Assembly: GCF_006711645.1 (NCBI RefSeq)
Contig: NZ_CP041247.1
Coordinates: 682,001-746,000, forward strand
Source: Klebsiella electrica
GTDB taxonomy: Bacteria; Pseudomonadota; Gammaproteobacteria; Enterobacterales; Enterobacteriaceae
DNA length: 64,000 bases
Direction: 5' to 3'
Shown one piece after another: positions 5,442 to 38,514 of this stretch. Made by a program: the position numbers and the translations under genes. Position 1 is the stretch's first letter. Each line of letters opens with the position of its first letter. The notes below the pieces were generated by a model, which did no database searches, was not told the DNA's origin, and saw only the letters and a list, made by a program, of their open reading frames with translations.

Positions 5442-6332
5442 ATGGATAAGCTACGCGCAATGGAGACGTTTATTACCGCGGTGGAGTGCGGCAGTTTTAC
5501 CGACGCGGCATCGCGACTGGAGATGTCGGCGGTCATGGTCGGTAAATATATCGCCCTGACGGAGCGAGAGCTTGGTACCCGCCTGCTTGAGCGCAACACC
5601 CGGCGCCAGAGCCTGACCGATGCCGGGCGAGTCTATTATGAAGAGGCCAAACGGGTACTTGAACAGGTCGCTATCGCCGAAAGCTCGGTCGAACGATTGC
5701 GACTGGCGCCGGCCGGGACGCTGCGTATCAGCGCGCCGACCTCTTTTGGCGCCTGCGTGATTGCGCCGCTGACCGCTTCTTTTTTACAGGCGTGGCCGGA
5801 TGTTCGCATCGAACTGGATCTGACTAACCGGATGATCGATCTCGTCGATGAGGGCTTTGATCTGGCGATCCGTATTGGCGATATTCACCACACCGATCTG
5901 GTGGCGAAATATCTCTGTCCTTATCGGATGGTGATTTGCGCCGCGCCCGCTTACCTGGCTCGTCACGGTACGCCAGTCGTACCGGCGGATTTGGTCGATC
6001 ATCTTTGTCTGTCCCATACGGTATGGACGGCGCGCAATGAGTGGACATTGCCGGGCGCGCAAGACGCGGTGAGCTGGAAGCGCGATGCGATTTTGCGCTG
6101 CAATGATGGTTACGGCCTGCGCATGGCGGCGATAGCCGGAGCCGGGCTATTGCTGCAGCCGGAGGTCTTACTGAGCGAGGCGCTGGCCAGCGGCAAACTG
6201 GTGCGCGTGCTGGAGGCCTATACTCCCCACCCACGCCCGGTACATTTACTCTGGCGGCAGGATCTTCGTCCGCTGCCGAAGCTGACCCGCTTCGTAGAGC
6301 ATGTGCTGAACGAGGGAAAGCGCTATTTATAA
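5442..6332 (+). CDS. LysR family transcriptional regulator
   Basis: 296-residue LysR-type regulator. The N-terminal winged helix-turn-helix is clear (residues about 1-60, with SFTDAASRLEMSAVMVGKYIALTE as the recognition region and the RLLERNTRRQSLTDAG wing). The effector-binding domain follows from about residue 90 (LRISAPTSFG) to the end. It is closest in look to the DNA-binding AaeR/YafC-type group. Divergence from the SDR gene suggests it controls that gene and itself. Confidence 0.88.
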   Translation: MDKLRAMETFITAVECGSFTDAASRLEMSAVMVGKYIALTERELGTRLLERNTRRQSLTDAGRVYYEEAKRVLEQVAIAESSVERLRLAPAGTLRISAPTSFGACVIAPLTASFLQAWPDVRIELDLTNRMIDLVDEGFDLAIRIGDIHHTDLVAKYLCPYRMVICAAPAYLARHGTPVVPADLVDHLCLSHTVWTARNEWTLPGAQDAVSWKRDAILRCNDGYGLRMAAIAGAGLLLQPEVLLSEALASGKLVRVLEAYTPHPRPVHLLWRQDLRPLPKLTRFVEHVLNEGKRYL

Positions 6333-6623
6333 GCGCCGGTTATCGGGTCGCTATTTCGGGGCCTGGACGAAAGCTGGTGCGCCAGCAGGCTGGCTTCGTT
6401 TTTGAACTGGCCTGTATAGAAAGCTCCCGGTCATCCTGGTAAGATTCTGACGTCAGCATGGAAGGGCAGGGGATTTTCCCCGGAACGGCATATCTTTGGA
6501 GATAAGGTCTTAGCGCTGGCGGTTTGTTGGGGGGACGTGCGAAGTCGTCTATCAATTGAATGTTGAGCGCTTAATATTTCCAGCATAAAGCTGATATTGA
6601 ATCCTTTCACAGGAAAACGATGT
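6333..6623. other. Intergenic region upstream of TetR gene
   Basis: About 290 bases between a LysR and a TetR gene, both on the + strand. I see no gene or strong palindrome. It presumably holds the TetR promoter. An AGGAAA ribosome-binding sequence lies 7 bases before the ATG at 6624. Confidence 0.4.
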
Positions 6624-7202
6624 ATGAAGCCAAAACAAGCGGAAATTCTCCGCCATTCCATGTCTCTGTTCAACAAAGAGGGGTATCAGTCGCCAAGCAT
6701 TGACCGGATTTCGGAGAATGCGGGCATCTCCAAAATGACGTTCTACCGCTACTATCCGGATAAAGAAGCGCTCATCCTCGCCATTTTACAGCTGAAAGAA
6801 CTCGAGTTTATGCAGGATCTGCAGAATATTGTTGCGGATAAAGCCTCGGCGCGGGAGAAGCTGTTTGCCGTTTTTGAATACTATAACGACTGGTTTAAAT
6901 GCGAAGATTTTCATGGCTGCATGTTCACCCGCGCGCTCTTCGAATATGGCGCTTCTTCCCAGGCTATCCGGGTGACCTGCTCGACGTTTAAATCACGTCT
7001 CTACCAGTTTTTTTGCGACATTCTCGTGAGTGTATTGAAACCGGAACCGGCGGAACGGGTGGCGATGATGATGGTCATGCTTATCGATGGCGCAATCGCC
7101 GCCCAACAGGCTGAGTCATCTGAGTGCCGGGAGATTCCCCCGGGAATGACGGCCTGGAGTGCGGCGAAAGCACTTATTTATTCCGAAGGCGGGACGCTCT
7201 GA
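6624..7202 (+). CDS. TetR/AcrR family regulator
   Basis: 192 residues. The N-terminal TetR helix-turn-helix is typical (ILRHSMSLFNKEGYQSPSID... then ISKMTFYRYYPDKEALI, residues about 5-50), and the variable ligand-binding domain contains CEDFHGCMFTRALFEY. I chose ATG 6624 over an in-frame TTG at 6597 because AGGAAA precedes it at good spacing. Its stop codon directly abuts the stop of the convergent di-iron enzyme gene (no spacer). It probably controls that enzyme and/or the exporters to the right. Confidence 0.85.
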   Translation: MKPKQAEILRHSMSLFNKEGYQSPSIDRISENAGISKMTFYRYYPDKEALILAILQLKELEFMQDLQNIVADKASAREKLFAVFEYYNDWFKCEDFHGCMFTRALFEYGASSQAIRVTCSTFKSRLYQFFCDILVSVLKPEPAERVAMMMVMLIDGAIAAQQAESSECREIPPGMTAWSAAKALIYSEGGTL

Positions 7203-8297
7203 TCATCGCGCCATGCCAGGTATTTCAAGTGCGCGTAACGTCTCCAGCAGGCGATCGTAGTAATCGTTACAGGTTTGCAGACGAAGCGCGGCGCCGAAGT
7301 ACACTTCCTCCATCGCCGCGGGATGTCTTTTACCTGTCGGTACGATAACGTTATTCAGCCATCCGTCGGCGTGCCCGATATCAACCGTGATGTGTTCTGC
7401 ATAATAATGCACATCGCGTTCTGTCATCCCAATACGCAGGCAACCTGCGACAAGTTTTTGATACTGGGGAGGATCGAGTAATTCTGTCATCGCCATCACG
7501 CCAAGCGATTTGTAGTAATGCTGCCGGTTAACCCCGCCAAGCATGAACGCGTTATAGCCAGCAAGTCCTTGCCAGTCATACAGATGGGTAAAATGATTAT
7601 CGGGTAAGGCAATATCCCGACGCTTCAGTAAATCCTTATACAGATTGACGTGCGTGATTTCATGACTTCCCTGGCCTATCTCATCCCACAGATTCCGGGC
7701 AATTTCAGCGCGCGTTTCTGGCAGGGAACCGACAAGACCCATAGCGACCAGATCGAAAAAAAGCAGATTCAGCGCGCTGTCGCTTTTGAAGAAATAATCT
7801 ATCTGTGTTGCGGAAGCTGATGTTGCGAGAAAGTCAAACAGAGGGTGATGTGAGGCCGGGTGCATCTCACACAGCTTACGCAGTTCTGCAACAATATTCC
7901 CGGCGTTGAGAACCGGTTTATGGCAAACCATGTGTTTCTTTTCCGCCCGCAGCCATTCGGACTCGATGTAATTCCGGATCCTGGTGAGCAGGGGGTGAAA
8001 CTGGTTTTTGGCGGCCATGGATAGCGGCTCAGCCAGCCAGGTCTGGTAAAGCTGGAAAAGCGCGCCGAGGGCAAATTTTTTCGCCTGTAGATCGCCCGCA
8101 GTAAACGCCCTGATGCAGGTGTTTTCCATCAAATACCAGACCTTTTCTGCAAGCTGCGGAGTGGCCGTCAGCGTCAGCGAAAGTTCGTCACTGTTGATGA
8201 GCCGGTCAATCATTTCGTCCAGCGGCAGTCTGTCCATGTCAAAAGGATTATCGGAATGATGTTTGTTTCCGGCGAGAGGATTTTCAGCTGTGCGCAT
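7203..8297 (-). CDS. Haem-oxygenase-like di-iron enzyme (HDO family)
   Basis: 364-residue iron-containing redox enzyme of the Haem_oxygenas_2 / HDO superfamily. The key ligands are visible: Glu206 with His216 ten residues later, Glu272, and the H-x3-D-x2-H motif His302/Asp306/His309 (in EHITVDIGHADGW). This is the same pattern as in the characterised N-oxygenase SznF. HDO members perform N-oxygenation, oxidative C-C cleavage or arene chemistry; the substrate here is unknown. It is convergent with a TetR regulator and divergent from a DMT exporter followed by an MFS exporter, so a small product made here may be pumped out. Confidence 0.82.
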   Translation of the reverse strand: MRTAENPLAGNKHHSDNPFDMDRLPLDEMIDRLINSDELSLTLTATPQLAEKVWYLMENTCIRAFTAGDLQAKKFALGALFQLYQTWLAEPLSMAAKNQFHPLLTRIRNYIESEWLRAEKKHMVCHKPVLNAGNIVAELRKLCEMHPASHHPLFDFLATSASATQIDYFFKSDSALNLLFFDLVAMGLVGSLPETRAEIARNLWDEIGQGSHEITHVNLYKDLLKRRDIALPDNHFTHLYDWQGLAGYNAFMLGGVNRQHYYKSLGVMAMTELLDPPQYQKLVAGCLRIGMTERDVHYYAEHITVDIGHADGWLNNVIVPTGKRHPAAMEEVYFGAALRLQTCNDYYDRLLETLRALEIPGMAR

Positions 8298-8507
8298 TAA
8301 TTTATCCTTGTAAAGCGCATGGTATATATACGTTATAGTACCGATAATGGTGCTGCAAGTTTATTTTATAACTGGCGTGTATTTTTTATAATTAATTGAT
8401 TTTAATGGTGTAACTTGTTTTATTTCAATAATATTAAAAAATAGTTGATGTTATTAAAAATAAAACGTTACTATTTAGTACAGTCTGAAGTGATGCAAGG
8501 AATCAGC
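8298..8507. promoter_or_regulatory. AT-rich divergent promoter region HDO / exporters
   Basis: 210 bases, very AT-rich, between the divergent di-iron enzyme and DMT exporter genes. It contains the near-palindrome GGTATATATACG...ACCGAT near 8320-8345, which could bind the neighbouring TetR protein. This is inferred from position only. Confidence 0.35.
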
Positions 8508-12507: not shown

Positions 12508-13173
12508 TCATGAATGCAGTGCGCCGGCCAGATAATGTTTCTGGTTTTGTCTCGGCGTGGCGATGCGTTTCTGATGCCCTTTAGGCATCCAGTTTGCGAC
12601 AATTTTCGGGTTCAGGTCGATATCGACTTCATCCTGATAAAACATGGGATGGTTTATCTGCTCCTGAGCCATCGCCTGCCCGACGGCAAGCTGCTTTTCC
12701 TCATAGTGTGGGTCTTTGATTTTCAATGTTGGCGCGGTTCTGCACCAGACCATTCCCGCCTGTTTCAGGTAGCGGTGTAAGGTGGAACGGTGAAGAGTCA
12801 CATCGAAAAGCCGGTTGACGATACGGGTCAGTAACTCTGTGCTCCAGCGCGAGTGCAGCCAGCCGAAATCCCCGGGGGAACGTTGTACCAACAGCGGCAA
12901 AGTCCGAAGGATATCGGCGACCGGCCACTGTGAAGCGCGCCCGGGCCGGAGGCTCTTTAAGCCGTCAACACCATATAAAGTTAACCAGTTTATCCATCTG
13001 CCGACGGACGAACGGGCGGCACAGAGCAGCCTGGCGACCTCGGTAACGGTTATTCCCCGATGCAGCATAAGCAGAGCAATAAGCCGCCGGGAATGGTTTT
13101 TATCGCGGGTTTGCCGGGCTTCTTTACGCATCAGTCGTCGTTCTTCATCAGTAATTGCTGTTATGATCGGCAT
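12508..13173 (-). pseudogene. IS630-family transposase, C-terminally truncated
   Basis: 221 residues of a transposase of the IS630 family: an N-terminal helix-turn-helix (RLIALLMLHRGITVTEVARL, then SSVGRWINWL) and the start of the DDE domain (FYQDEVDIDLNPK holds the first catalytic Asp). Full-length relatives are about 340 residues. The protein stops at LAGALHS, before the second Asp and the Glu, so it cannot transpose. The cut end faces the tRNA-Phe remnant, so the island boundary event or a later deletion removed the rest. Confidence 0.8.
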
Positions 13174-13380
13174 TGCGCAGTCCGGTTAGTGGTTTGTTTT
13201 GATTTTGCGATTGATCAGAACGCTCAATCCGGACTGAGTTCCCTTCAGGTGATCTATTATTTTGAGAAGTTATTTAGATTTTATTTATAATTAAAAATGT
13301 GATTTATATAATAAATGAAAAGCAGCAGTGATGATACTAAATACTAACCCCATTAAATATATAATGGGGTGTATTGTTAA
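13174..13380. other. AT-rich gap next to the AIPR gene
   Basis: About 200 bases between the truncated IS630-type gene and the AIPR gene end. It probably includes the 5' flank of the IS. A short palindrome AACCCCATTAAATATATAATGGGGT (13345-13369) lies just beyond the AIPR stop and could serve as its terminator. Confidence 0.4.
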
Positions 13381-15327
13381 TTAAATGGTATGTATGTAAG
13401 GCTCAACTGTAATTTTATCCTGTCTTATTTTAAATAGGACTTTATCTCCAGGCATTAATTTAAATACTTCATCATTAACAGCTTCCCCTTCTATTTTGAA
13501 AGGACCATGCTGAATTCTGATTTTTCTTTTATTGTGTATGATGTTATCAATTATCCCTATGTATTCGCCATTTTTTAAGGTGAAATTTTTATCTGATGCT
13601 TGTGATTTACCTTTTGTCTTTTTATCTATAGGATTTGTTGATAAATAGCGCATGAAATCGGCTATAAGTTTTTTAGTAATATCAGGGTTTCTGTTTTCTT
13701 TTGCATTTATTTTTTTTGATTTTAAGAAATTGGCTGCTATATTAAATGCTGATTCGATATTTTCATCAATCCTTATCATTAGCTGTAAAAATCTTTTGTC
13801 AATAATAGCCATCCCTCTACATAACTCAGGAGCAATGGCTCTTTTTATTAATAGAGCAAGATGGAAACTCCATTCTCTTAATTGGCGATCCTTATAGGCG
13901 TAGCCTTTTGTTCTGAAAGTAATATGATGGGCCGCAAAATATAATCCAGGATAATCATCTTCGGAAAAGAGTTCACTGGATTTATTCTGATTATATTCAG
14001 ATAGTAATGTTCCATAGTAATAATGGACTTTATGGGGTTCTTCCAGAACTGTGGACACAAAAGATTTAATCAATGTTGGGGCGGAAGTAATAAATTGTTG
14101 TTTTATCTCTTGTTCATGATCATATTGATGAGGTCTGCGTTCATAATAATATTCATACCCAACATTGTTTCTCATCGCATTAAAAAAGTCTTCAACAAAG
14201 CGATGATATGGGCGAATTGTTGCAAATGCTTCTTTTGTAACTTGTGATTGACTGTTAGTGGTTGATATAACTTGCCCACTTAAATCAATGTCTGTGGTTT
14301 CGACAAGTTTTATTGTCACATACATATCATCAGTCAAAAGTGTTCTGTTATTATAAAGAACATGACTGGTTTGACACCCATTTACAACTTGGAATTGAGA
14401 TAATTGGAAATTATCTCCAGATGGAATTATTCCCTTTGCGACGATAGTTAATCCGTTATTGAGTATAGCAAATCTGTCTCTTTCCTCTGTTTTCTTGATG
14501 GTTTGAGCTATATCATCATTAACTAGATTTTGATTACCAAGAAAGTCACGTACATTCTCAAAGAATAACCCTTTATTAATATCACCATTGCTCTTTTGTA
14601 TTATCTTTACATAATCAGAACATTTTACCACACCTAAATAAGCCGATTTTGCTCCTTTTATTTTTGGGAGCGATACATGTCGTTCGAATGGTATTTCTAC
14701 AAAAATGTCATTCTGTGTTTCTCTGTATAGTTTTGCAATTGCGTCTCCATCATATATATTGCATGTTACAGATGAAGATAAATATGGCATTGACCGCATA
14801 TCTTGTAAGAACGTATCCTTTTGAGAAATGATGTCATTGTTACTATTATCAAAATGACCAGTGTAGACAAAATCTAATTCAATACTTGGTAAATGTTTTA
14901 ATTTGGCGCTTTTATTATAAATATAGGTTTTAAGATCAAATGCTTTATGTAACTGAGTTGGTACCGCTTGTTTATCTTTGCCGAAAAAAGTCTTTACGGT
15001 TGAGGTGAATTTTAAAAAATCTCCGAAATCAAATTTAGTGGATGTTTTTGCTTGAGAAAATATGAAGTTAACCTCAAACTGTGCTCGTGTGAAATTCTCC
15101 AAATCAGTCATTTCATCAATAATTACTCCGCCAATTGAAATGGCAAAACCATCAACTCCAATACATTCGCCAGTACTGACTTTATCAAATTCAAAAGAAT
15201 CATAATGATCAGATTTCAATAGACAATAATTGACGAATTTTTCAAATTGTAAATCTTGATTATCATTTTCCAAATTGTTTTTAATTACAAACTCTCGAAG
15301 CATTCCCGATAAGATTATATTATCCAT
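13381..15327 (-). CDS. AIPR family anti-phage protein
   Basis: 648-residue protein of the AIPR family (abortive infection phage resistance). Family marks are FFENVRDFLG (about 255-264), FAILNNGLTIVA (about 286-297) and the diagnostic VVNGCQTS (about 314-321). The N-terminal part (residues about 55-95) looks like a PD-(D/E)XK nuclease fold with Asp59 and a Q-A-K motif at 92-94 in place of E-x-K, as seen in other AIPR proteins. It stands as a single gene next to the methyltransferase/ATPase/nuclease operon, both on the minus strand, separated by about 815 bases. AT content and codon use differ sharply from the backbone. Confidence 0.85.
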   Translation of the reverse strand: MDNIILSGMLREFVIKNNLENDNQDLQFEKFVNYCLLKSDHYDSFEFDKVSTGECIGVDGFAISIGGVIIDEMTDLENFTRAQFEVNFIFSQAKTSTKFDFGDFLKFTSTVKTFFGKDKQAVPTQLHKAFDLKTYIYNKSAKLKHLPSIELDFVYTGHFDNSNNDIISQKDTFLQDMRSMPYLSSSVTCNIYDGDAIAKLYRETQNDIFVEIPFERHVSLPKIKGAKSAYLGVVKCSDYVKIIQKSNGDINKGLFFENVRDFLGNQNLVNDDIAQTIKKTEERDRFAILNNGLTIVAKGIIPSGDNFQLSQFQVVNGCQTSHVLYNNRTLLTDDMYVTIKLVETTDIDLSGQVISTTNSQSQVTKEAFATIRPYHRFVEDFFNAMRNNVGYEYYYERRPHQYDHEQEIKQQFITSAPTLIKSFVSTVLEEPHKVHYYYGTLLSEYNQNKSSELFSEDDYPGLYFAAHHITFRTKGYAYKDRQLREWSFHLALLIKRAIAPELCRGMAIIDKRFLQLMIRIDENIESAFNIAANFLKSKKINAKENRNPDITKKLIADFMRYLSTNPIDKKTKGKSQASDKNFTLKNGEYIGIIDNIIHNKRKIRIQHGPFKIEGEAVNDEVFKLMPGDKVLFKIRQDKITVEPYIHTI

Positions 15328-16141
15328 AAAATACCTTCATTAATAAATAAGTGAAAATAGATATGTTGTAACACTAAATATTGAGTCAATCAATGAAAAT
15401 AATGTGGTTTATTATGCGGATTTATTTTTTCTTACAAAATTGCAGGTAAACGAAACATTAGTGCCGTTTTTCCTGTTAATTCTGCTTGCTGCCATTAATT
15501 AACCGCAGTATCCCCAATTCGTGCCTGAAAATTAAGGTTCCAGGCTTGACCTCCTGAAAACTGTTACAGGCGACATACGACTCGCCTGCATCTTTTTTTA
15601 TGTCGTGCGCACGGCTACACCTCTGCCGCCCCATCTTAGTTATGATTTTATTTAAATTAGAGTAAGGTTAGTATAGCCTTTATTTTATACTTATAGAAGT
15701 GTTTTTATATAAAAACAGCAAGTGCAGGAGTTAGTAGAGATCTATGTTATGGTTATTTCTGGGTTATGAAGGTCACTCCGTTTGCTGAATTGATGACCCG
15801 CAATCTGGACGACAGCGTGCAGGACGCTATTACGGCGCGGCAGGCGTAGTAATATAACAAACTAATTCACTTAGGCTTGCTAGAATAATAGAAAGCATCA
15901 TATTTTGATAGTGAATGTGTATGTGATCACAAATTAATGGGGTTGGTTCGCATCTTTTTGATTGAGTGAAATTTCACTCAATTTATTTAAGTTTTAGCAG
16001 GTAGGTCACTTGTTAATAATAGATAATCTAATTAATTCATGTGTAGATAAAAGTAATAATTTTTATTGGAAATACTTGGGTTGTGTTTTACTTTAAATGA
16101 ACTCAAAGCCGCCAGAATTATTTCAAGCGGCAACGTGGGAA
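15328..16141. other. Non-coding spacer between two defence modules
   Basis: About 810 bases, mostly AT-rich. The part 15400-15600 is less AT-rich and carries a terminator-like hairpin (listed separately). At 15765-15848 a 27-codon open stretch (MKVTPFAELMTRNLDDSVQD...) has backbone-like composition and may be the tail of a lost gene. The AIPR promoter should lie at 15330-15450. Confidence 0.4.
15567..15599 (+). terminator. Rho-independent terminator, orphan
   Basis: Stem CAGGCGA / TCGCCTG (8-base loop CATACGAC) followed by CATCTTTTTTT. It is a good intrinsic terminator on the + strand, but no intact + strand gene ends before it, so it probably belonged to a deleted gene. Confidence 0.55.
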
Positions 16142-17230
16142 CTAGTCATCAATTGGACCAACTAGATTTTCTACTTCTTCATCTCGTGCTTGGTCTGTTT
16201 TGTTATACATTCTATAATTAATATATTTAACACTATACCTATTTGCTAGTTTAATGATTGAATCTATTTCAATGCACTTTTCTCTGCCATCGAAAGATAA
16301 AAGGTATTTTGATTTTGCATTTTTATCCGTCGCATAATCCCTTGCTTGTAAAACCCCCTTGTATAACCAACGTCTATCATGGTTTAGACCATTTCCGTTT
16401 CTTAAAACCTTTAGCTCTATAACACATGGGCCGTGTTCTTCTATCATTGCGCTAGGGCAGATGTATATATCCATTCGTCCGCTATTAACAGTTCCTTCTG
16501 ATATGACGTTTTCTGGCCCTAGTTTATTTTGAAGACTATCCGCCAGCCTCGCAGATATTCTTGTCTCGGCCTTTTTGGTTAGAGTGAATTCTTTTTGACT
16601 ATCCCATATCATCATTGTCGAACTAGGGTACATTAGTTCTTTTGAGTAAAAGTCATTAGTATGTCTTTCTAGATCGGAACAATTGTAAATAACCTTTTTC
16701 GTTATTATTGGGCTTGATTCCCCTTCATTTTCATCTCCTTCTGGGTATGAATTTAGAACGGAATTTTCATTTTCATATCGGGCATAGCAAAGCGTTTTTG
16801 GATTGAATTTTAATATATTATCTATCTCGGAAGAAAACATGTTCTGAATGTCAATATTACTATTGCATTTGTCATATTCAGTGTCTATTACTCTAACGCG
16901 GGATAAATTAGTATCTAATGAAAGAATTACTTTTCCTTTAATATCAATTGATGTGAATGAGAAAAAACGATTTACTTCTTGACCAAGATTTTCAAGATCA
17001 CGTTTAATGTCATTAGGTACTAAGACAAATAAACAATCGCCAATGGATCTTATATCATTTGAAACTTTTATTCTATTATTTAAATAGGATTTTACTTTAA
17101 CTATAAAACTATATGGATCTGCACTCGAGTTTGATGGCAGGCTACTACTTGATTCAGGGATGCTCTGTCGTGTTTTCTCAACACTATCTGGCTCCATAAT
17201 GCTATTTAAATTATTTTTATTAATTTTCAT
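16142..17230 (-). CDS. PD-(D/E)XK nuclease-like protein, last gene of the MTase/ATPase operon
   Basis: 362 residues. The C-terminal third carries a well-formed restriction-endonuclease-type active site: Glu222 in a helix, Asp254 (GRMDIYI), Glu272-x-Lys274 (VIELKV) and a Q-motif glutamine 295 (GVLQARDYA). The N-terminal 200 residues are unrecognised. ATG 17230 is preferred to 17260 because it follows a GGGAG box and overlaps the previous stop by 11 bases (ATGAAAATTAA), giving translational coupling. As the nuclease partner of a methyltransferase and an SMC-like ATPase it is the likely effector of a restriction-like system. Confidence 0.78.
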   Translation of the reverse strand: MKINKNNLNSIMEPDSVEKTRQSIPESSSSLPSNSSADPYSFIVKVKSYLNNRIKVSNDIRSIGDCLFVLVPNDIKRDLENLGQEVNRFFSFTSIDIKGKVILSLDTNLSRVRVIDTEYDKCNSNIDIQNMFSSEIDNILKFNPKTLCYARYENENSVLNSYPEGDENEGESSPIITKKVIYNCSDLERHTNDFYSKELMYPSSTMMIWDSQKEFTLTKKAETRISARLADSLQNKLGPENVISEGTVNSGRMDIYICPSAMIEEHGPCVIELKVLRNGNGLNHDRRWLYKGVLQARDYATDKNAKSKYLLSFDGREKCIEIDSIIKLANRYSVKYINYRMYNKTDQARDEEVENLVGPIDD

Positions 17231-17858
17231 TATGTTTAGCTCCCATGTTATCAAAAGCATTTTTTAAGTAAGCAATGTAACGATGAATTCCTTCTCTTGT
17301 GGTCTGACTGCGTTCTTGAGGAAATAAATGCGATATTGCTTCTTTTGTAAAATTATTATCGGGGGTAGATATATCTACACCAAGCCCATCGGAAACTATT
17401 TTATAGTGTATTTCAAAATTATTTATTTCGTGTATCTGTATTTTTGATAAATATGTTAAAGATCTGAAGAATTCACGCAAAAAGATTGAGTAGTTTTCAA
17501 GAATTGTATCGTCATTTATTTCTTCGGTTATATCTAACCCTTCCTTTGTTATTCTATAATTCCCTTTAAGCCAAAAACCATGTTCATCTTTTATCGCAAC
17601 TACACTTTGTGACTCAACAAGTTGTTGGGCCACCAATATCCCAATATCAAGCTGAGCTCTTGGAAAATAAGGGCCTCGTCTGTGCTTTAATGTATAATGG
17701 TTAGGCATTTTCACATCAGAAACAGGGGACAATACATTTGCAAGATATATAAGTTTATGCAGCATATCCATGGCTATAGGATATATTCCATTTCTTTCAG
17801 CGGCCTCAAAAAATAAAAGTAACCATCCCCTTGACGAAAGTTCAATGTTATCTTTCAT
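17220..17858 (-). CDS. ABC-3C-like middle component
   Basis: 212 residues. The N-terminal half looks like the winged-helix 'middle component' proteins of ABC-three-component (ABC-3C) systems: a helical start (HKLIYLANVLSP), then KHRRGPYFPRAQLDIGILVA and a wing NYRITKEGLDI. The C-terminal half is unrecognised. ATG 17858 is chosen because GAGGA lies about 8 bases upstream and the start overlaps the ATPase stop by 11 bases (ATGAAAGATAA); an in-frame ATG at 17873 is possible. It probably links the ATPase to the nuclease encoded immediately downstream. Confidence 0.7.
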   Translation of the reverse strand: MKDNIELSSRGWLLLFFEAAERNGIYPIAMDMLHKLIYLANVLSPVSDVKMPNHYTLKHRRGPYFPRAQLDIGILVAQQLVESQSVVAIKDEHGFWLKGNYRITKEGLDITEEINDDTILENYSIFLREFFRSLTYLSKIQIHEINNFEIHYKIVSDGLGVDISTPDNNFTKEAISHLFPQERSQTTREGIHRYIAYLKNAFDNMGAKHNEN

Positions 17859-19944
17859 CTGCGATATCCTCATAGTCCTCAGGGTATACTGCTTTAGAAA
17901 ACATTAAATTATACTCATTCCAATTATTTTTTAATGATAAATTTGGAGCCGCAAGATTTAGTAAATTAATAATATGTTTACTTCTATTTTCACGACAGAT
18001 TCCATCTGCTGTTTTTATTGATGTTTCTTGGCCTAATTTATTAAGAATGATATCACTATCAGACTTATCGTATGTGGCAGGTGAAGAAATAGCCCCCAAT
18101 AGAGCTGGAATCATTTCACTTTTATTTAAATTGGTGCTTGCTAAGAAAATGTTTTTCCCATCTTGGGCATTAGCAAACTCTCTGAATAATCTACTTGCTT
18201 CATGTATAAATAAGCTGTCCAAACTAGCTTCTGGTGTTTCCATAACAACCATTGCGGGTGATTGGTTTTCCGCACTAATAACATCAATCAGAGATAATCG
18301 AAATGCTAAGTCTATGAATTCCTTCTGAGATTCCGATACAGAGTCGGCAGTCTCTCTCTTTGATGGCTCTCTATCAAAAACACCAGATGTCATTAATACC
18401 TTAAAACATGGGAAATCAATTGCGGAAATTCCTTGGCCAATTTTTCTTGATTGGGTTTCATAACGGATAAAAACTCTTTCTGCTAATAGATTCTTGCTGT
18501 AATATTTAAACCTCTGCTCAAGCAGTTTCATTTTCACATTTAGTTTTTCATTATTAATTGTTAAAATGTTTAAATACTTTGCATTTGCTTCGTTTCGTAT
18601 ATTATTTTGCTCACGGAGTTCTATTTCTCTAAAATCTATTATGCGTTGGAGTTCCTGTTTTTCAGTTTCGTCTAGGGGCATGTTTTTTTCAAGATTTTTA
18701 ACTCTGTTTTGAGATGCTTTCAATTCTAGCATTGAGTCTCTAAGTATGTTTTCAATTACATACACACCTTCTTTTAATTCTTCAATAATAGTTGTTTTAG
18801 AAGATATAGAATCTTCTAATATATCCATTTTTGCATATAAAATTTTAAGTTCATTATTTAAATGCTCAATGGAGTGATCATTTTTTTCTTTACCTTCTAT
18901 TTGTGAATTACAAATAGGGCATCGCTTATCTAAAGAAAACTTTTTACGAAAATAATCAGGGCTGGCACTTTCGTTCCCACATGCCAGGCATCCGGCTCCA
19001 GAATTTAAGCTCTTTAGTATATACTCTAATGTCGCATCGTTATCTGGTAGGTAATGTCCATATATTAAATGCTGGTTGTAGTCTATTGCATATTTTAATT
19101 CATCTAGATCTCTGGAATAAGTCGCCTTTGCTAATCTTTCATCTTCCAATATGTTTTTTTGATTGATGTAATTATCTTGTGATTCTTTAAAGGCCTCTTC
19201 TAGAGCTGATAGTTTTGTTTTCTCCAATATATATGTGGCCCTATTTTTCTCTGATTCAGCATCGCTTTTTTCTTTTAATCTATCTCTAATTGTTGTTAAC
19301 GAGGCATTTAAATTCCTGTATTTGCTATCTGCTTTTTGAGCGATATCATATTGTTTTACAGCTTCTCTAGATGATTCTGCGTCAAAAAATAAAATACGCA
19401 TCATTTCAAATTGAGCTCGATTATCCCAAATAAGCTCTGTCCTATCTTCTAAGAAGAATAGCAAGTATTTAATTATATAATAAAAATCTACATAATCGGC
19501 TGCCCCGGAAAGTTCGATAATTTGTCTTTCATATTCATCCTGTGATGCTTCTAAAATAACCCCATTTTTAGATAACCCAACTACTTCAAGATTAGATAGT
19601 TTCCTTTCAATCTCGAGGATATTATCGCCAAATGATACTTTACATTTAATGAAAGAATTAATTGCTCCATCTTTAACTCGATTACGGAAGAATGAATTTT
19701 TTCTCCATTGTGCCAATGTATGGCCGGTACTTCCCAGAAGTGCCGTATCGCTTTTGGGGATATCTTTGGGACCTACTAAGAGTCTAAATAACGCACTTAG
19801 TAATGTTGTTTTTCCTAATCCATTTACACCAATAATTAAGTGAATGCCACCATTAAGCTCATGAGATATACCATCATTATTCTCATTTTTATATATCTGA
19901 AACCCTTTTATATCAATACTGCGTATTACAGGGAAACAAATCAT
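17848..19944 (-). CDS. SMC/Rad50-like ABC ATPase with four-cysteine hook
   Basis: 698-residue ATPase. Walker A GVNGLGKTT is at about 39-47. Long coiled-coil segments (about 200-290 and 355-480) flank a four-cysteine motif C319-x2-C322 ... C342-x2-C345 (CLAC/CPIC), as in zinc-hook proteins. A signature-like SESQKEFIDLAFRL is at about 537-550, and Walker B AMVVMETPEASLD at about 564-576 carries Glu in the expected catalytic position. It follows the methyltransferase by 15 bases and is coupled to the middle component. It is probably the DNA-sensing or translocating motor of the system. Confidence 0.85.
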   Translation of the reverse strand: MICFPVIRSIDIKGFQIYKNENNDGISHELNGGIHLIIGVNGLGKTTLLSALFRLLVGPKDIPKSDTALLGSTGHTLAQWRKNSFFRNRVKDGAINSFIKCKVSFGDNILEIERKLSNLEVVGLSKNGVILEASQDEYERQIIELSGAADYVDFYYIIKYLLFFLEDRTELIWDNRAQFEMMRILFFDAESSREAVKQYDIAQKADSKYRNLNASLTTIRDRLKEKSDAESEKNRATYILEKTKLSALEEAFKESQDNYINQKNILEDERLAKATYSRDLDELKYAIDYNQHLIYGHYLPDNDATLEYILKSLNSGAGCLACGNESASPDYFRKKFSLDKRCPICNSQIEGKEKNDHSIEHLNNELKILYAKMDILEDSISSKTTIIEELKEGVYVIENILRDSMLELKASQNRVKNLEKNMPLDETEKQELQRIIDFREIELREQNNIRNEANAKYLNILTINNEKLNVKMKLLEQRFKYYSKNLLAERVFIRYETQSRKIGQGISAIDFPCFKVLMTSGVFDREPSKRETADSVSESQKEFIDLAFRLSLIDVISAENQSPAMVVMETPEASLDSLFIHEASRLFREFANAQDGKNIFLASTNLNKSEMIPALLGAISSPATYDKSDSDIILNKLGQETSIKTADGICRENRSKHIINLLNLAAPNLSLKNNWNEYNLMFSKAVYPEDYEDIADER

Positions 19945-19959
19945 GATATTGTCCTTTAA

Positions 19960-21237
19960 TTATTTTTTTTCCAAAAATATAGCGGTCTCACTTAGATTTT
20001 TAGCCCATCCCTGCTGAGCACTGGATTTCATTATTCTAATTTCCTGTAGATCTTTGATAGTAAATCCAATTTCCTTTGCAAGCTCACAGGTTATTTTTGT
20101 TGTGTCTATTTTTATATCTGAATATCTACTGTCACCAATTACAATCACTGCCATTCCGTTATTCTCAAGAACGCGCATAGATTCTGTCATTATTACATTT
20201 ATGTCATGAAAATAATAACTAATCATGTCGGGTATATTTTTGTTCCAAAGTTCTTTTCGCTTCCCATCTAATTTATCTAATGTCTCAGATAGCGTTGGTG
20301 AAATTGGTTGCGGTGAAGAAAACATTTTTATTTGAACATGAGAACGTAACGTGTTGGATCTTAATTTTTTATTATCTTCCGAATCATTTAAATAACCTAA
20401 GGCCCAAAGTTCAACATTATATATGTCAGTGTAATCAAACGTATTAGGATATGGCGGTGAAAATAATACCAAGTCACTGGTTTCCACTTCTGATATTAAC
20501 TTCCTAGAGTCCCCTCTAAAAAGTCTATATTCTTCCGATTTTGTTTTTGAATAACGAACTATATCAAAAATAGCATCGTCAACTTTCTGGCGTAGTGCTG
20601 CATCAAAAGAATCTGTAGAGTATGTTAAAGACTGCCAATTTTTTCTATACCGCCTACCTTTACCATTTATTAGTACATTGCTAAAAGGGATAAGAATTGC
20701 TCCCAAAAGAACTTTTAACAAATTTTTATTTTCATTTTTTTCTATTTTTTCAAATGATTCTCTATATTGCGCGATTCTATAAATTATTTCTTTATTAAAG
20801 ACCCACCTAAATTCTTCATTATTATGATAAAGTGTTTTTGGCGCGTTTTTATAAAGCAGAGCCAGGTTTGGGGTTTGAGTATCAACGATTTTCATAACAT
20901 ATGACCAATCGTCAATTAAGCTTTCGCTATTATAGCTAGTGAGCTTACTTTCGATCAAATCAGCAAGAAAGGGGTTGACCTCGATTGTTGTTGGCTTAAT
21001 CCCCATGAGCTGAGATGTAAGTGCTGTTGTACCTGAACCACCGAAGGGGTCCAAAATATTTTTTACCTCGATAGAGGATCTTTGGATAACATCATGTACA
21101 AATTTGGGCGAAAATGCCTCTTTAAATTTGAACCATCTTTGGAACGGAACATTTCCTACACCTTGCGCAGTGCTTAACGGGGCAGATAGATCCTGCCATT
21201 GTAGTAGACTATCTACGCCATTCTTGTATCCACGCAT
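19960..21237 (-). CDS. DNA methyltransferase (amino-methylating, SPPY type)
   Basis: 425 residues. The SAM-binding motif I is DPFGGSGTT (about 63-71). The catalytic motif IV is SPPYPN (about 260-265), which marks amino-group (N4-cytosine or N6-adenine) methylation; Ser in the first place favours N4-cytosine. About 190 residues separate motif I from motif IV, and this insert could carry target recognition. It is the first gene of a four-gene minus-strand operon with the ATPase, the middle component and the nuclease. Its role is presumably to mark self DNA. Confidence 0.88.
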   Translation of the reverse strand: MRGYKNGVDSLLQWQDLSAPLSTAQGVGNVPFQRWFKFKEAFSPKFVHDVIQRSSIEVKNILDPFGGSGTTALTSQLMGIKPTTIEVNPFLADLIESKLTSYNSESLIDDWSYVMKIVDTQTPNLALLYKNAPKTLYHNNEEFRWVFNKEIIYRIAQYRESFEKIEKNENKNLLKVLLGAILIPFSNVLINGKGRRYRKNWQSLTYSTDSFDAALRQKVDDAIFDIVRYSKTKSEEYRLFRGDSRKLISEVETSDLVLFSPPYPNTFDYTDIYNVELWALGYLNDSEDNKKLRSNTLRSHVQIKMFSSPQPISPTLSETLDKLDGKRKELWNKNIPDMISYYFHDINVIMTESMRVLENNGMAVIVIGDSRYSDIKIDTTKITCELAKEIGFTIKDLQEIRIMKSSAQQGWAKNLSETAIFLEKK

Positions 21238-21815
21238 CCATTAAATCTCTATAAAACAATTAGTTATATTTATTTTGGTGCGTTTATGATACACCACCAC
21301 TCGTATATCATGAATTATTAACTAATAGAAATGTATGTCAACAGCGGGATGAGTTTTTGTAGATACTGGTTATTTATATTTTAGTGGATGTGTAATATTA
21401 ATTCATTGAAATTATTGAGGTTTATTGTTTCATGAGTTTTCACTTTATGTACTAACAAATTTGGGGGTTGTAAGGATAACTATTTTAGTTGCGCGTACTT
21501 GGACCCTTCCGAATATCGGTGCCAAGATAAAAAGAGACTCCTGCCCAAACGTCTACATCTGAACGCTGTTTCACCAAACTTCATTTCACCGCTGCGGAGC
21601 AAGGGGCGCTAAGTCCAGCTATGCAGGGGCAGATTTTTTCTCCCGTGTGTTTCCCGTTCTCCGTATTCGCTTCCGGTTAATCGTTTCCCGGCACAACCCG
21701 TCCCGCAAGGGTAAATGGCACGCATTCTGCGCCCTTGCGGGCCAGAACGACGCCGGGAAAGCGAACCGTCAGGCGATACGAAGACGAAAATCACACCACT
21801 GACGGAGAAAAAACC
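21238..21815. promoter_or_regulatory. Spacer between methyltransferase and ardC-like gene
   Basis: About 580 bases. The left part (to about 21470) is AT-rich and should hold the promoter of the minus-strand methyltransferase operon. The right part becomes GC-rich and plasmid-like and holds an inverted repeat (21702-21741) upstream of the antirestriction gene. I see no gene. Confidence 0.45.
21702..21741 (+). promoter_or_regulatory. Inverted repeat upstream of the ardC-like gene
   Basis: Ten-base perfect arms CCCGCAAGGG (21702-21711) and CCCTTGCGGG (21732-21741) with a 20-base loop, about 75 bases before the ardC start. In plasmid leading regions, folded single-strand promoters of this sort drive early antirestriction genes; that role here is inference. 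Confidence 0.5.
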
Positions 21816-22760
21816 ATGACAATTTCCCTGCATACCCAGACCAGCGCCCCTAACACCGCAGCGGCGACCAGCGTATCCCCGCTGGACCCGTCAGGCTCCT
21901 CAAAAACGAAATGGTCTAAAACCAAAACCGACATTTATCAGACCGTCACCGATAGCATCATTAGCGCACTGGAAGCAGGCGTTAAGCCCTGGACGTGTCC
22001 GTGGCAGCGCGTACCGGGCATGTCCGGTTTACCTTCCAACTACGCCACCGGCGCGGCTTACAGCGGGATGAATATCATGTTGCTGTGGTGCAGTGCGTCA
22101 GAACAGGGATTCAGTGATTCACGCTGGATGACCTATAAACAGGCTCAGGCAGAGGGCGGGCAGGTTCGCAAAGGTGAGCATGGCACGACCGCTATTTTCT
22201 ATACCACACTGGAGAAGGAGAACGACGCCGGAGAAATCGATCATATCCCGATGCTGAAAACCTTCACTGTGTTTAACGTTCAGCAAATTGACGGTCTTTC
22301 CCTGACTACTGAGGCAGTGAGTCCCGCTGAAACGTTCGAGCCGTTGCCGCAGGCTGAAAATCTTTTCCAGAGTAGCGGCGTAAACATCATAGAGAAAGGA
22401 CAAAACGCCTTTTTCAGGCCCTCAACCGATGAGGTCTGGCTGCCGGAGCGTCAGCTTTTTTCCGATGCCGCTAATTTCTACGCCACCGGCCTGCATGAGC
22501 TGGTGCACTGGAGCGGTGGTAAAACACGTCTTGACCGTGAAATGAAAGGAAGATTCGGTAGTGAGGATTATGCATTTGAGGAGCTGATCGCCGAGCTGGG
22601 AAGCGCGTTCCTGATGGCGGATCTGGGAATTGTCGGAGAGGTTCAGCACGAAAGCTATATTGCTTCCTGGCTGAAAGCACTGAAAAACGACAAGCGCTAT
22701 ATTTTCAAAGCCGCCAGCGCAGCATCGAAGGCGCATCGTTATCTGATGGATAAGGTTTGA
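21816..22760 (+). CDS. ardC: ArdC-type antirestriction protein
   Basis: 314 residues, the length of the ArdC family. The N-terminal ssDNA-binding domain (KTDIYQTVTDSIISALEAGVKPW, i.e. after residue 35) is followed by a zincin-like metalloprotease domain with an intact HELVH motif (LHELVHWSGG) and a downstream Glu (FEELIAELGSAFLM). ArdC proteins are carried by conjugative elements and protect incoming DNA from restriction. ATG 21816 is chosen over the upstream in-frame start because GGAG lies 9 bases ahead. Its GC content is like a plasmid or backbone gene, unlike the AT-rich defence operon beside it. Confidence 0.85.
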   Translation: MTISLHTQTSAPNTAAATSVSPLDPSGSSKTKWSKTKTDIYQTVTDSIISALEAGVKPWTCPWQRVPGMSGLPSNYATGAAYSGMNIMLLWCSASEQGFSDSRWMTYKQAQAEGGQVRKGEHGTTAIFYTTLEKENDAGEIDHIPMLKTFTVFNVQQIDGLSLTTEAVSPAETFEPLPQAENLFQSSGVNIIEKGQNAFFRPSTDEVWLPERQLFSDAANFYATGLHELVHWSGGKTRLDREMKGRFGSEDYAFEELIAELGSAFLMADLGIVGEVQHESYIASWLKALKNDKRYIFKAASAASKAHRYLMDKV

Positions 22761-22839
22761 GTTGAAGAACGGGAAGCCGCAAAGGAATGCGGCTTTAACC
22801 TTATATTGGGGTAGGCAGAGTAACAGGGGGAGCAATTTC

Positions 22840-22882
22840 CCTGCGAATTTTCCGGGCATCGGGTGCCCGGAAAATTCGCAGG
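22840..22882. repeat. 19-bp perfect inverted repeat after ardC
   Basis: Arms of 19 bases (starting CCTGCGAATTTTCC, and its exact complement ending GGAAAATTCGCAGG) flank a 5-base loop. A second stem (GGGCGGC-AAAGA-GCCCGCC) follows at 22897-22915. There is no T-tract, so a terminator, a transfer-origin hairpin or a recombination site are all possible. Confidence 0.7.
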
Positions 22883-23079
22883 CTGCGGGTGCGGGCGGCA
22901 AAGAGCCCGCCCATCCCGCAAACGACATTTTATACCGGTGATTACTGTTGATAACGGAACAGGTATAACGACCCATTGTTAAATGTGAAAGACTGCAACG
23001 GTAGCAGGACCTGTTTTTGGTGCTATGATAAGTGCATCGGGCCGTGCAATTTGCACGTATTCATTGCGGGAGAGAAACC

Positions 23080-23316
23080 ATGACAGCGAAACAACGCAGC
23101 ACACAGAGTGTGACCATGACGGTAGAGCGAGCCTTACTGAGCCGGGCGCGTGAGGCAGGCATTAACCTCAGTGCGACCCTGACAACCGCCCTCGATGCGG
23201 AGCTTCGCCACTATGAAGCGAAAAAATGGCAGGAAGAGAACAGGGAGGCCATCGACGCATTAAACCGTTTTCATGATGAACATGGCTGTTTCAGTGATGA
23301 ATATAGGACATTTTAA
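23080..23316 (+). CDS. ccdA: CcdA-type antitoxin (copy 2)
   Basis: 78 residues, same family and layout as the gene at 11172: N-terminal DNA-binding part (KQRSTQSVTMTVERALL) and acidic toxin-binding tail (FSDEYRTF). The five differences from copy 1 are Thr2, Ser21, Thr36, Tyr44 and Asp59. The upstream box TATGAT replaces the TATAAT of copy 1. It follows the ardC-like gene by about 320 bases, a setting typical of conjugative-element DNA. Confidence 0.9.
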   Translation: MTAKQRSTQSVTMTVERALLSRAREAGINLSATLTTALDAELRHYEAKKWQEENREAIDALNRFHDEHGCFSDEYRTF

Positions 23317-23318
23317 CC

Positions 23319-23639
23319 ATGCAGTTCACCGTATACGGGAATACCGGTAAAAGCGCCGTTTACCCACTGTTGCTTGATGTCACAAGCGATATTATTGGAC
23401 AACTGAACCGCCGGATCGTGATCCCGTTGCTGCCTGTTGACAGATATCCGGCAGGCCGCCGCCCGGATCGCCTTGTCCCCGTGGTCAGACTGACGGACGG
23501 CCAGGAATACGCTGTCATGACTCACGAACTGGCGAGTGTCCCTGTCCGGGCGCTGGGGGTGATGTTCTGTGATGCTTCGCAGTACCGCACTCAGGTAAAG
23601 GCCGCTATAGATTTCCTCATCGACGGCATTTGGTCGTGA
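23319..23639 (+). CDS. ccdB: CcdB-type gyrase-poisoning toxin (copy 2)
   Basis: 106 residues. It matches copy 1 along the whole length with about 12 substitutions (for example Arg47, Val55, Arg57, Val81-Met82) and two extra C-terminal residues (Trp-Ser) after Gly-Ile. In F-plasmid CcdB the last residues are needed for gyrase poisoning, so the extension could alter activity; this is inference. It is coupled to ccdA with a two-base gap. Confidence 0.88.
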   Translation: MQFTVYGNTGKSAVYPLLLDVTSDIIGQLNRRIVIPLLPVDRYPAGRRPDRLVPVVRLTDGQEYAVMTHELASVPVRALGVMFCDASQYRTQVKAAIDFLIDGIWS

Positions 23640-35012: not shown

Positions 35013-35928
35013 GGCTGTGTCCTTTAATTGCATAATTTTTTGTAAAACAGTCTAATGCAACCCAGTTTCACCATCGCCAGATAATTCCTCGCCGTTTTGT
35101 CGTAACGCGTGGCAATGCGACGGTATTCTTTCAGACAGCCAAAACACCGCTCAACAACGTTGCGATTACGATAAGCATCACGATCAAGCTGTGAACGACC
35201 ATCTGCTGCCATTTTTTCATTAGATTTCCGCGGGATAACCACTTTTATCCCTTTTCGTTTCAGCTCATTGCGAAGCGCATGTCCTGAGTAGGCTTTGTCA
35301 GCCAGCACCGCATAACCACGACGTTTCATGCTGCCGTTCTGGCGCTGAACACCAATTCCGTCCAGAAGGCGTAATGCGAACTGGCTTTCGTGAGCCTGTC
35401 CGGGACTCAGCACGATATTTAACGGGAGACCGCCTGCATCCGTCGCCATATGGATTTTGGTGCCAAAACCACCGCGAGAGCGACCCAGCCCATGATCTCC
35501 GGCGATATCGGGATGTTTTTTTGCGCGCCGGCGGCGCACCTGAGTGCCCGGATATTGCTGCCATCCAGCGCAGTAGCTGACCAGTCAACGAGGCCGTGAG
35601 CATCAAGAGAAGAAAGCAACCTGTTGAAAATAATATTAATCACACCCGACTTAGACCACCGGTTAAAGCGGTTATATACGGTTTTCCATGGGCCGTATCG
35701 TTCAGGTAAATCACGCCATGGGGCACCAGAGCACAACACCCAGAACATGCCATTGATGATCATACGATGCTCCGCCCATGGGCGTCCGGCCCGTGGTGTT
35801 GCAGGTTGAGCGGGCAGTAAAGGCTGGATGATATCCCATGCTTCATCGGGAAGGTCGTAGCGGGCCATAGTTCAATATGTTGTAGAAACAGATGGTTACT
35901 ATAGCTCAGACGATTAAGGGACACAGCC
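35013..35928 (-). mobile_element. IS5-family element (IS427-like), left copy, 916 bp
   Basis: Ends are the near-perfect inverted repeats GGCTGTGTCC...GGACACAGCC, flanked by TA on each side as target duplication. The two overlapping frames encode a transposase identical to the right copy at 38515-39430, which is in inverted orientation. Confidence 0.88.
35024..35868 (-). CDS. IS5-family transposase, two frames (left copy)
   Basis: Two frames (35419-35868 and 35024-35539) encode the halves of one DDE transposase of about 281 residues. The first holds DLPDEAWDIIQPLLP and the first Asp (TALDGSNI); the second holds the second Asp (VLADKAYSG) and the Glu (NVVERCFGCLKEY). Full protein requires a -1 ribosomal frameshift at A-AAA-AAC (on the minus strand within the T7 run near 35516-35522). 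It is identical in protein sequence to the right copy. Confidence 0.85.
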
Positions 35929-36056
35929 TAGAACCACTGCATGCCAATCATTAGAGGAGTAGATCGCAGCCGGTACTCTTCCGGCGTCTTTGAGAGACGC
36001 ATTCCAGACACGAATGGTGCCTCGCTCACCGTTAAAAACTCTTTGTGCTCTGTTTC

Positions 36057-38453: not shown

Positions 38454-38514
38454 GAACACTCCCTTAGCGCTGGCTATTGGCTGCCGATTTGCAAGTGAAA
38501 CAGATCGTTAGCTA

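Follow-up and report, generated by a model that had tools for sequence, protein, structure and literature searches.

Four adjoining genes on the minus strand, encoding a DNA methyltransferase (MTase), an ABC ATPase with a zinc-hook motif, a small middle protein and a nuclease, lie within the 64,000-nucleotide stretch of Klebsiella electrica DNA that was analysed here and is referred to as the window (Table 1). A gap of 15 bases separates the MTase and ATPase genes and overlaps of 26 and 41 bases follow further on, so that the coordinates confirm the order and spacing (one gap, two coding overlaps) given in an earlier, sequence-only reading of this DNA. The gene coordinates are those of the first possible starts, and the true starts may lie further inside. 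Across the block the GC content drops from about 0.5 to 0.33, which is consistent with acquired DNA. The candidate promoter upstream of the MTase gene was called by its consensus match alone, the upstream region as a whole showing no enrichment of sigma-70-like matches (23 found against 28.4 expected), and the inverted repeat beside it is a possible operator.

Table 1. Genes and candidate regulatory features of the four-gene locus (positions within the window)
Feature	Position	Strand	Description
MTase gene	21237-19960	-	425 aa; amino-type (SPPY), with motif I preceding motif IV; proposed to mark self DNA
ATPase gene	19944-17848	-	698 aa; Rad50/SMC-like ABC ATPase, coiled coil, CxxC...CxxC zinc-hook motif; proposed DNA scanner/motor
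Middle-protein gene	17873-17220	-	217 aa; small winged-helix protein
Nuclease gene	17260-16142	-	372 aa; PD-(D/E)XK, C-terminal domain ~195-360; N-terminal domain variable
Candidate sigma-70-like promoter	21314-21341	-	TTGACA-16-AATAAT, 11/12 consensus; ~77 nt upstream of MTase start
Imperfect inverted repeat	21283-21314	.	12-nt arms, 83%, 8-nt loop; between candidate promoter and MTase start

In this study the locus was compared with others to give a set of 38 non-identical systems. Left out of the set were a plasmid locus with a split ATPase (L004), two loci with two copies each of the ATPase, middle protein and nuclease triad (L005 and L058), one with an overcalled nuclease start (L048), one at a contig end (L099), two whose ATPase is the same as that of another locus (L100, as in L104, and L115, as in L054) and three divergent loci (L102, L105 and L106). 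In one profile set a length limit on members kept 34 MTases, 35 ATPases, 27 middle proteins and 33 nucleases.

The MTase matches Pfam N6_N4_Mtase above the cut-off (7e-14) and has SPPY at residues 260-263, a motif that is typical of N4-cytosine MTases and is kept in all 38 systems; judged from these motifs, its product is probably N4-cytosine methylation. Motif I (DPFGGSGTT, residues 63-71) precedes SPPY, and the protein is therefore permuted relative to the Pfam profile. Its PADLOC matches, taken as the best 25 of 38 families, are to models of Type II or orphan MTases, among them MTase_II (PDLC03224, 5.5e-54). A divergent small protein is encoded upstream of the MTase, and in 4 of the 38 systems these proteins are mutually related. 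The one that was tested (L038) is an HTH protein; by analogy they resemble the control proteins of restriction-modification (R-M) systems.

Matches of the ATPase to Pfam AAA_23 fall just under the cut-off (25.2 against 27 bits), and Rad50 is matched too. Its Walker A motif (GVNGLGKT) and the signature S-x-S-Q are present in 38/38 systems, and the four hook cysteines, which form CxxC pairs at 319/322 and 342/345 in the window protein, in 37/38. One full-length ATPase lacking all four hook cysteines (L006) counts against the explanation that we prefer below. When DndD_L122 was omitted from the tree, the ATPases of the four-gene systems formed one group (support 87/71). No Pfam family was found for the middle protein, which has a winged-helix core in its AF2 model (pLDDT 83.5). 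The nuclease matches PDDEXK_9 of Pfam under the cut-off (E 0.014), and the AF2 model of residues ~195-360 has a PD-(D/E)XK fold with a predicted active site of E232/D264/E282-x-K284/Q305-x3-Y309. The E/D/ExK residues are kept in every one of the 38 systems, and inactive motifs in most homologues, named earlier as grounds for setting the novelty aside, are not what was found. The SPPY-type MTase, the SMC-like ATPase with a four-cysteine hook and the PD-(D/E)XK nuclease of the earlier reading were all borne out, the last by its modelled fold despite the weak Pfam match. Of its ABC-3C-like winged-helix middle protein, the winged helix is borne out by the model; the profiles of the two fetched LmuC groups do not match the protein, but nor do they match each other.

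In many species the four genes are conserved as a set. With the MTase as the sole query, a scan returned 32 loci, 26 of which carry the other three genes as well, an association beyond chance. In the opposite direction, ATPase searches of genomes gave 11 genomes with the ATPase, 10 of them counted as intact (G035 and the majority of the 145 genomes in one scan, with short matches to Walker A only, were not counted), and all 10 intact ATPases adjoin the MTase. Each of these genomes has exactly one MTase of the family (E up to 1e-20), located at the triad. Among the viral-contig loci found with the ATPase, 9/10 adjoin the MTase and the tenth contig ends inside the ATPase. Some of these reverse scans relied on a profile of ATPases that came from MTase-linked loci, by which distant MTase-free cousins may be missed, and others used the window ATPase alone or five ATPases (that of the window and four found with it). 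The search for the same neighbourhood in other genomes, which had been suggested as a check, thus shows it to recur widely.

Wherever an intact triad was found and its flanks could be read, the MTase is present as well. The single triad without it (G1333/L117) has an ATPase truncated at 309 aa, and there is no MTase elsewhere in that genome. Full-length MTases without an intact triad do occur (L044, L059 and L063), an asymmetry that is as expected of R-M. In L005 and L058 one MTase serves two triads, and the paired triads fall in the same two ATPase subgroups. The plasmid locus L004 counts against the preferred explanation: its ATPase is split into two parts, other genes intervene before the MTase at a distance of 3.3 kb, and the nuclease profile does not recognise its third gene.

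Within the triad the proteins co-vary closely (Mantel r 0.84-0.91), and more so than the MTase does with any of them (0.55-0.64). The order ATPase-middle-nuclease is the same in 38/38 systems, while the MTase takes four arrangements relative to it, at a spacing of -26 to +38 bases in 34/38. The fixed order and tighter co-variation of the triad, together with the variable position of the MTase, suggest a physical complex and a partner that communicates with it through DNA. The co-variation of ATPase and nuclease in particular (r 0.89) argues against a nuclease that acts without the motor.

With the four genes found together, the triad co-varying as one unit and the active-site residues intact, methylation-licensed, ATP-dependent restriction appears to be the most likely function. 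We consider it probable, with appreciable room for doubt, that this is a mobile, self-marking R-M system in which the restriction part is a Lamassu-like SMC machine and not a simple endonuclease or helicase. In such a system the MTase would methylate host DNA at a motif. Joined at the zinc hook, two ATPase subunits would load on DNA and scan or compact it, with the winged-helix protein as a DNA-binding adaptor. The trigger could be the motif met without its methyl mark, or stalling on foreign unmarked DNA, and ATP-driven closure would then release the PD-(D/E)XK nuclease for cutting; the host chromosome is proposed to be spared because it is methylated. A feature of the MTases that counts against the R-M reading is that they are fairly alike, with long conserved stretches, which suggests a recognition motif that changes little. 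In many type II families the recognition motif is more changeable.

The strict tie between MTase and triad would also fit an antitoxin kept with a suicide nuclease. It may be that the triad is a Lamassu-like module for abortive infection, which is triggered by structures in phage DNA (ends, hairpins, replication forks) and cuts the chromosome, methylation raising its threshold or silencing it. Lamassu, the nearest architecture, is reported to work through abortive infection and to recognise either DNA ends or secondary structure (PMC10586767, PMC12904381). However, this MTase family is present in 0/8 of the Lamassu-like loci that were fetched, which indicates that sensing structure does not require a mark. 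The plasmid-borne distant relatives of the MTase also speak against an antitoxin: in 3/3 records examined of the 13 found they adjoin a second methyltransferase gene, as in type II R-M cassettes with two MTases. On balance we regard abortive infection as rather unlikely, although a serious contender.

Two other explanations are very improbable. The lower co-variation between MTase and triad, the varying position of the MTase and its occurrence without a triad in L059 and L063 might be taken to indicate that MTase and triad are independent modules, carried along with each other in defence islands, but this is difficult to reconcile with the linkage seen from both directions, the short spacing and the single MTase copy per genome, always at the triad. 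A guard system, with the triad watching the MTase or its mark and firing once a phage blocks methylation or removes the mark, would have a precedent in PARIS, which senses the R-M inhibitor Ocr (PMC12839542). The MTase is also the best conserved of the four proteins (mean identity 40.9%, range 26.8-87.7%, against 19-26% for the others). We give a guard little credence, however, as no inhibitor-sensor domain was recognised in the proteins and the simpler R-M logic accounts for the same pattern.

If the preferred reading of methylation-licensed restriction is followed further, the four genes might, more tentatively, constitute a separate type of R-M, in which an SMC-class motor reads methylation while scanning or extruding DNA and a bound PD-(D/E)XK nuclease commits on unmarked DNA alone. 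As the mark would be shared, one MTase could license two different triads, as in L005 and L058, giving a plug-in platform on which the sensors diversify and the self-mark stays fixed. What keeps SMC-type defence machines from attacking the host chromosome is an unanswered question according to PMC12904381. It becomes directly testable with a conserved triad of SMC-like type that is linked to a dedicated MTase. If the proposal is true, the Lamassu-Rad50 world would gain the signal for telling self from non-self that Lamassu and Wadjet still lack. For annotation, a recurrent module with 38 non-identical examples and no name in PADLOC-DB 2.0.0 would mean one more system, recognisable by a simple rule of four genes.

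The four-gene system is probably undescribed. No named system of PADLOC-DB 2.0.0 (2023) matches the four genes, the nuclease being without a match at E up to 1 and the middle protein matching LmuC no better than at E 0.009. The description as an undescribed defence system therefore stands for that database and is less secure for the literature, where our check was limited to the passages found, none of which describes the set. The 2020 survey of ABC ATPases by Krishnan, which lies outside that check, reportedly treats conflict systems with ABC ATPases that operate jointly with R-M systems, and a prior mention there is possible. A related idea, in which hooked ABC ATPases are paired with N4 methylases, has been published (PMC10853773): some CxC-clade ABC ATPase-DndE (PbeABCD) systems have C5 or circularly permuted N4-cytosine methylases. 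Our system has in common with DndD/PbeABCD a zinc-hook ABC ATPase of similar length and, with a subset of those systems, an adjoining N4-type MTase. Of the profiles compared, that of DndD (5 sequences) is nearest to the ATPase (hhalign 99.1%, 4e-19, 559 columns, against 87.8% for SbcC), and this match appears to tie it closer to a known clade; the DndD rows nevertheless fall outside the system's ATPase group in the tree. PbeC (PDLC02747) matches 24/28 ATPase members, at best 4.6e-11, but neither 150 genomes nor the controls yielded a PbeC locus. Unlike DndD/Pbe, the system lacks the DndE double RHH partner, since its small protein models as a winged helix with no DndE or PbeD match at E up to 1, and in place of the PbeA HKD nuclease-SF2 helicase its fourth protein has a PD-(D/E)XK domain.

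With Lamassu/ABC-3C (DdmABC) the system shares a hooked SMC/Rad50-like ATPase, a small middle protein and an effector encoded together, and Lamassu effectors are varied and include PD-(D/E)XK nucleases (PMC10586767). The order differs, being effector-middle-ATPase in all seven complete Lamassu-like loci fetched (the eighth is broken) and ATPase-middle-nuclease here, and the dedicated MTase is a further difference. One LmuB group aligns with the ATPase profile at 98.6% (hhalign, 7e-16) over 67 columns, and no LmuB match is listed in PADLOC for the window ATPase at E up to 1. LmuB matches in 27/28 ATPase members are not specific, as the LmuB model PDLC03859 also matches SbcC-type proteins (up to about 4e-22). 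None of the 7 LmuB rows falls among the system's ATPase rows in the trees, where LmuB itself does not form one group. Among middle proteins PDLC03869 is matched in 2/27 members and PDLC03871 in 1/27, and hhalign gives 0.0-0.2% against two LmuC groups, which likewise reach 0.2% against each other. LmuA is matched by 2/28 nuclease members (best 3e-5), with hhalign at 0.2-0.3% against two LmuA groups (2 and 3 sequences). The view that the system merges the ABC-3C architecture with self-marking methylation holds for the architecture, in which a hooked ABC ATPase, a small protein in the middle position and an effector fit ABC-3C, and for the linked MTase. It is less secure for homology, given the absence of profile matches to the fetched LmuC or LmuA groups (although the two LmuC groups do not match each other either), the reversed order and an ATPase nearest to DndD.

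A Type II-kind MTase, by homology, adjoining a nuclease of restriction-enzyme fold is also what Type II R-M has; unlike there, the nuclease here co-varies with the ATPase and middle protein more than with the MTase. Type I and III R-M and BREX are ATP-dependent self-marking systems, and the proposed logic of ATP-dependent restriction licensed by methylation is common to them. The PADLOC matches listed for the four proteins (for the MTase, the best 25 of 38 families) include no SF2 helicase, specificity subunit, PglZ, BrxC, HsdR/HsdS or Res. By analogy with these known systems, we propose that the four genes work in the manner of Lamassu/ABC-3C with the addition of a type II self-mark.

The four genes, encoding a methyltransferase (MTase), a Rad50/SMC-like ATPase, a small winged-helix middle protein and a PD-(D/E)XK nuclease, lie on the minus strand just where the sequence-only reading had placed them; 15 bases separate the MTase and ATPase genes, and the two further junctions are overlaps, of 26 and 41 bases. 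The block has a GC of about 0.33 against about 0.5 in its flanks, and the window is 682001-746000 of contig 1, one of six contigs in the 5.79 Mb K. electrica genome. The AIPR/AbiU gene listed in the table is a separate phage-resistance gene of a known type, outside the four-gene set, and the ArdC and CcdA/CcdB genes are mobile-element cargo. Locus L006, from genome G251 of the same family as the window's host, apparently holds a different version of the system in the same cargo slot.

Coordinates of the system, its neighbours and related loci
Sequence	Position	Strand	Feature
Window	16142-21237	-	Four-gene system
Window	12508-22760		System between transposase-like and ArdC genes
Window	13381-15327	-	AIPR-domain protein downstream of nuclease; strong PADLOC AbiU match (9e-101)
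Window	21735-23639	+	ArdC anti-restriction gene, then CcdA/CcdB toxin-antitoxin pair, directly adjoining system
Window	33325-34917	-	NucS-type endonuclease domain at protein N terminus; PADLOC PDC-S11 match weak
Window	35024-39419		800-aa AAA_13 gene between two inverted copies of same transposase-like genes; fits PADLOC candidate PDC-S06, PrrC match weaker
L006	1253-12544		System between transposase-like (40% identical) and ArdC (85% identical) genes, as in window; ATPase 31% identical to window's, MTase convergent
L006	8887-10902		Full-length ATPase without any of the four hook cysteines; Walker A and signature kept
L117 (genome G1333)	5781-8444		Degraded system: open reading frames for nuclease and middle protein, ATPase only a 309-aa remnant
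L063	9953-15448		MTase of system's family convergent with different three-gene set, one gene encoding 874 aa with KaiC-type ATPase domain
L005	12190-16380		Caspase-like and MoxR-like genes directly downstream of double triad, Burkholderia replicon (ORF list read by eye)

The neighbourhood, which that reading had wanted sought in other genomes, does recur. The GTDB-species collection was scanned once with the MTase as the only query (three sequences), and 26 of the 32 loci found contain all four genes, called with profiles grown from seeds and, where the middle protein was unmatched, by reading the ATPase-nuclease gap. The middle protein is of two sequence types. Record titles place the hosts in what we take to be the Alpha-, Beta- and Gammaproteobacteria, and one locus (L066) is a MAG filed under Actinomycetota. 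Among the remaining loci, L044 has a full MTase, the nuclease and a 99-aa middle fragment without the ATPase, L067 has fragments of MTase and ATPase, L059 and L063 have a full MTase without the other three genes (the triad), and L068 and L069 are distant matches, also without the triad. The MTase of L063 and the three genes facing it are possibly another MTase-linked system.

Conservation of residues was scored over 38 non-identical systems. W219, E232, E255, D264, E282, K284, Q305 and D324 of the nuclease, Walker A, S537/S539/Q540 and E572/D576 of the ATPase, and SPPY, N265 and Y269 of the MTase are kept in all 38; nuclease Y309, ATPase P571, MTase D63 and F65 and the four cysteines of the hook are each kept in 37. 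Inactive motifs in most homologues, which the earlier reading held would count against it, were thus not found, active-site residues being kept in 37-38 of the 38. The four-gene system is real and conserved and very probably active.

The order ATPase-middle-nuclease is invariant (38/38), while the place of the MTase varies: in 23 systems it faces the nuclease tail to tail (convergent), in nine, including that of the window, it is codirectional upstream, in five codirectional downstream and in one divergent; its spacing from the triad is -26 to +38 bases in 34/38. Mean identity falls from 40.9% for the MTase to 25.9% for the ATPase, 21.8% for the middle protein and 19.1% for the nuclease. Mantel correlations, which still include host relatedness, are 0.91 (ATPase-middle), 0.89 (ATPase-nuclease) and 0.84 (middle-nuclease) within the triad, and 0.64, 0.60 and 0.55 between the MTase and ATPase, middle protein and nuclease, respectively; none of the observed values was reached in 2,000 permutations. 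In both L005 and L058 a single MTase serves two triads, and in the ATPase tree L005a groups with L058b and L005b with L058a, giving the same two subgroups. The two loci, from Burkholderia and Rhodanobacter, share this pairing but are arranged differently. The genes downstream of the L005 double triad form a putative further defence cluster.

Searches in the reverse direction, from the ATPase, covered four overlapping sets (295 genomes of the host's family, 398 of its phylum, 394 of the family of genome G415 and 398 of the order of genome G445) and found it in 11 distinct genomes. In the phylum set full-length matches had E <=7e-137, the next being short and at 1.8e-7 or worse. Intact ATPases were adjoined by middle protein, nuclease and MTase in 10/10 genomes, and an MTase profile (E up to 1e-20) found exactly one MTase, at the triad, in 10 of the 11. 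The same search found no MTase anywhere in the other, G1333, where the ATPase has decayed, which hints that an intact triad needs the MTase. Viral contigs gave 10 ATPase loci (two, L100 and L104, with identical ATPases), nine adjoined by nuclease and MTase, the tenth contig stopping inside the ATPase. The ATPase is also on two plasmid records, and each of these loci includes the MTase. L005 has its two triads, whereas in L004 the ATPase is broken, the MTase 3.3 kb away and the nuclease not recognised.

Loss is one-sided in the loci examined: MTases without a working triad occur, and working triads without the MTase were not seen. This would be expected of a restriction-modification pair, because a nuclease without its licence harms the cell. 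Distant relatives of the MTase, moreover, adjoin a second methyltransferase gene in all three plasmid records opened, of 13. The triad probably behaves as one complex, with the MTase as an ever-present partner that would act on it remotely, by way of the DNA. We therefore interpret the system as restriction that is licensed by methylation and carried out by an SMC-like machine. Whether such a machine would cut foreign DNA or act by suicide, which motif might be methylated and what the winged-helix protein might do, we can only infer.

Lamassu is the closest known architecture. Eight control loci were fetched in the host's family with the PADLOC LmuB (ATPase) model, with roles assigned by position and size, and the seven complete ones have the order effector, middle, ATPase, in contrast to that of the system; its MTase family is in none of the eight. 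The middle protein and nuclease profiles match no LmuC or LmuA (middle and effector) group fetched, but the two LmuC groups likewise fail against each other, which deprives this comparison of power. The ATPase profile matches DndD best (99.1%, 4e-19, 559 columns, five DndD sequences), then one LmuB group, labelled DUF3732 here (98.6%, 7e-16, 67 columns), then SbcC (87.8%, 3e-6). The LmuB model also matches SbcC-type proteins, so LmuB matches alone assign no membership. A tree built from 60 ATPase heads, whose long branches leave deep placement unsure, unites all 45 rows of the system (support 87/71, 90% of bootstrap trees) in two clades (31 and 14 rows), with every LmuB, DndD and SbcC row outside. 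CxC ABC ATPase-DndE (Pbe) systems, some carrying C5 or circularly permuted N4 methylases (PMC10853773), are a second precedent, from which the system differs in its small protein and nuclease. Among the PADLOC-DB 2.0.0 matches listed there was no known system with the same four genes, the other finding that would have removed the novelty claimed earlier. The parts are already known, as is the idea of a hooked ABC ATPase paired with a methylase; what is new to us, with prior mention possible in a 2020 survey of ABC ATPases, is the four-gene combination, its strictness and its spread.
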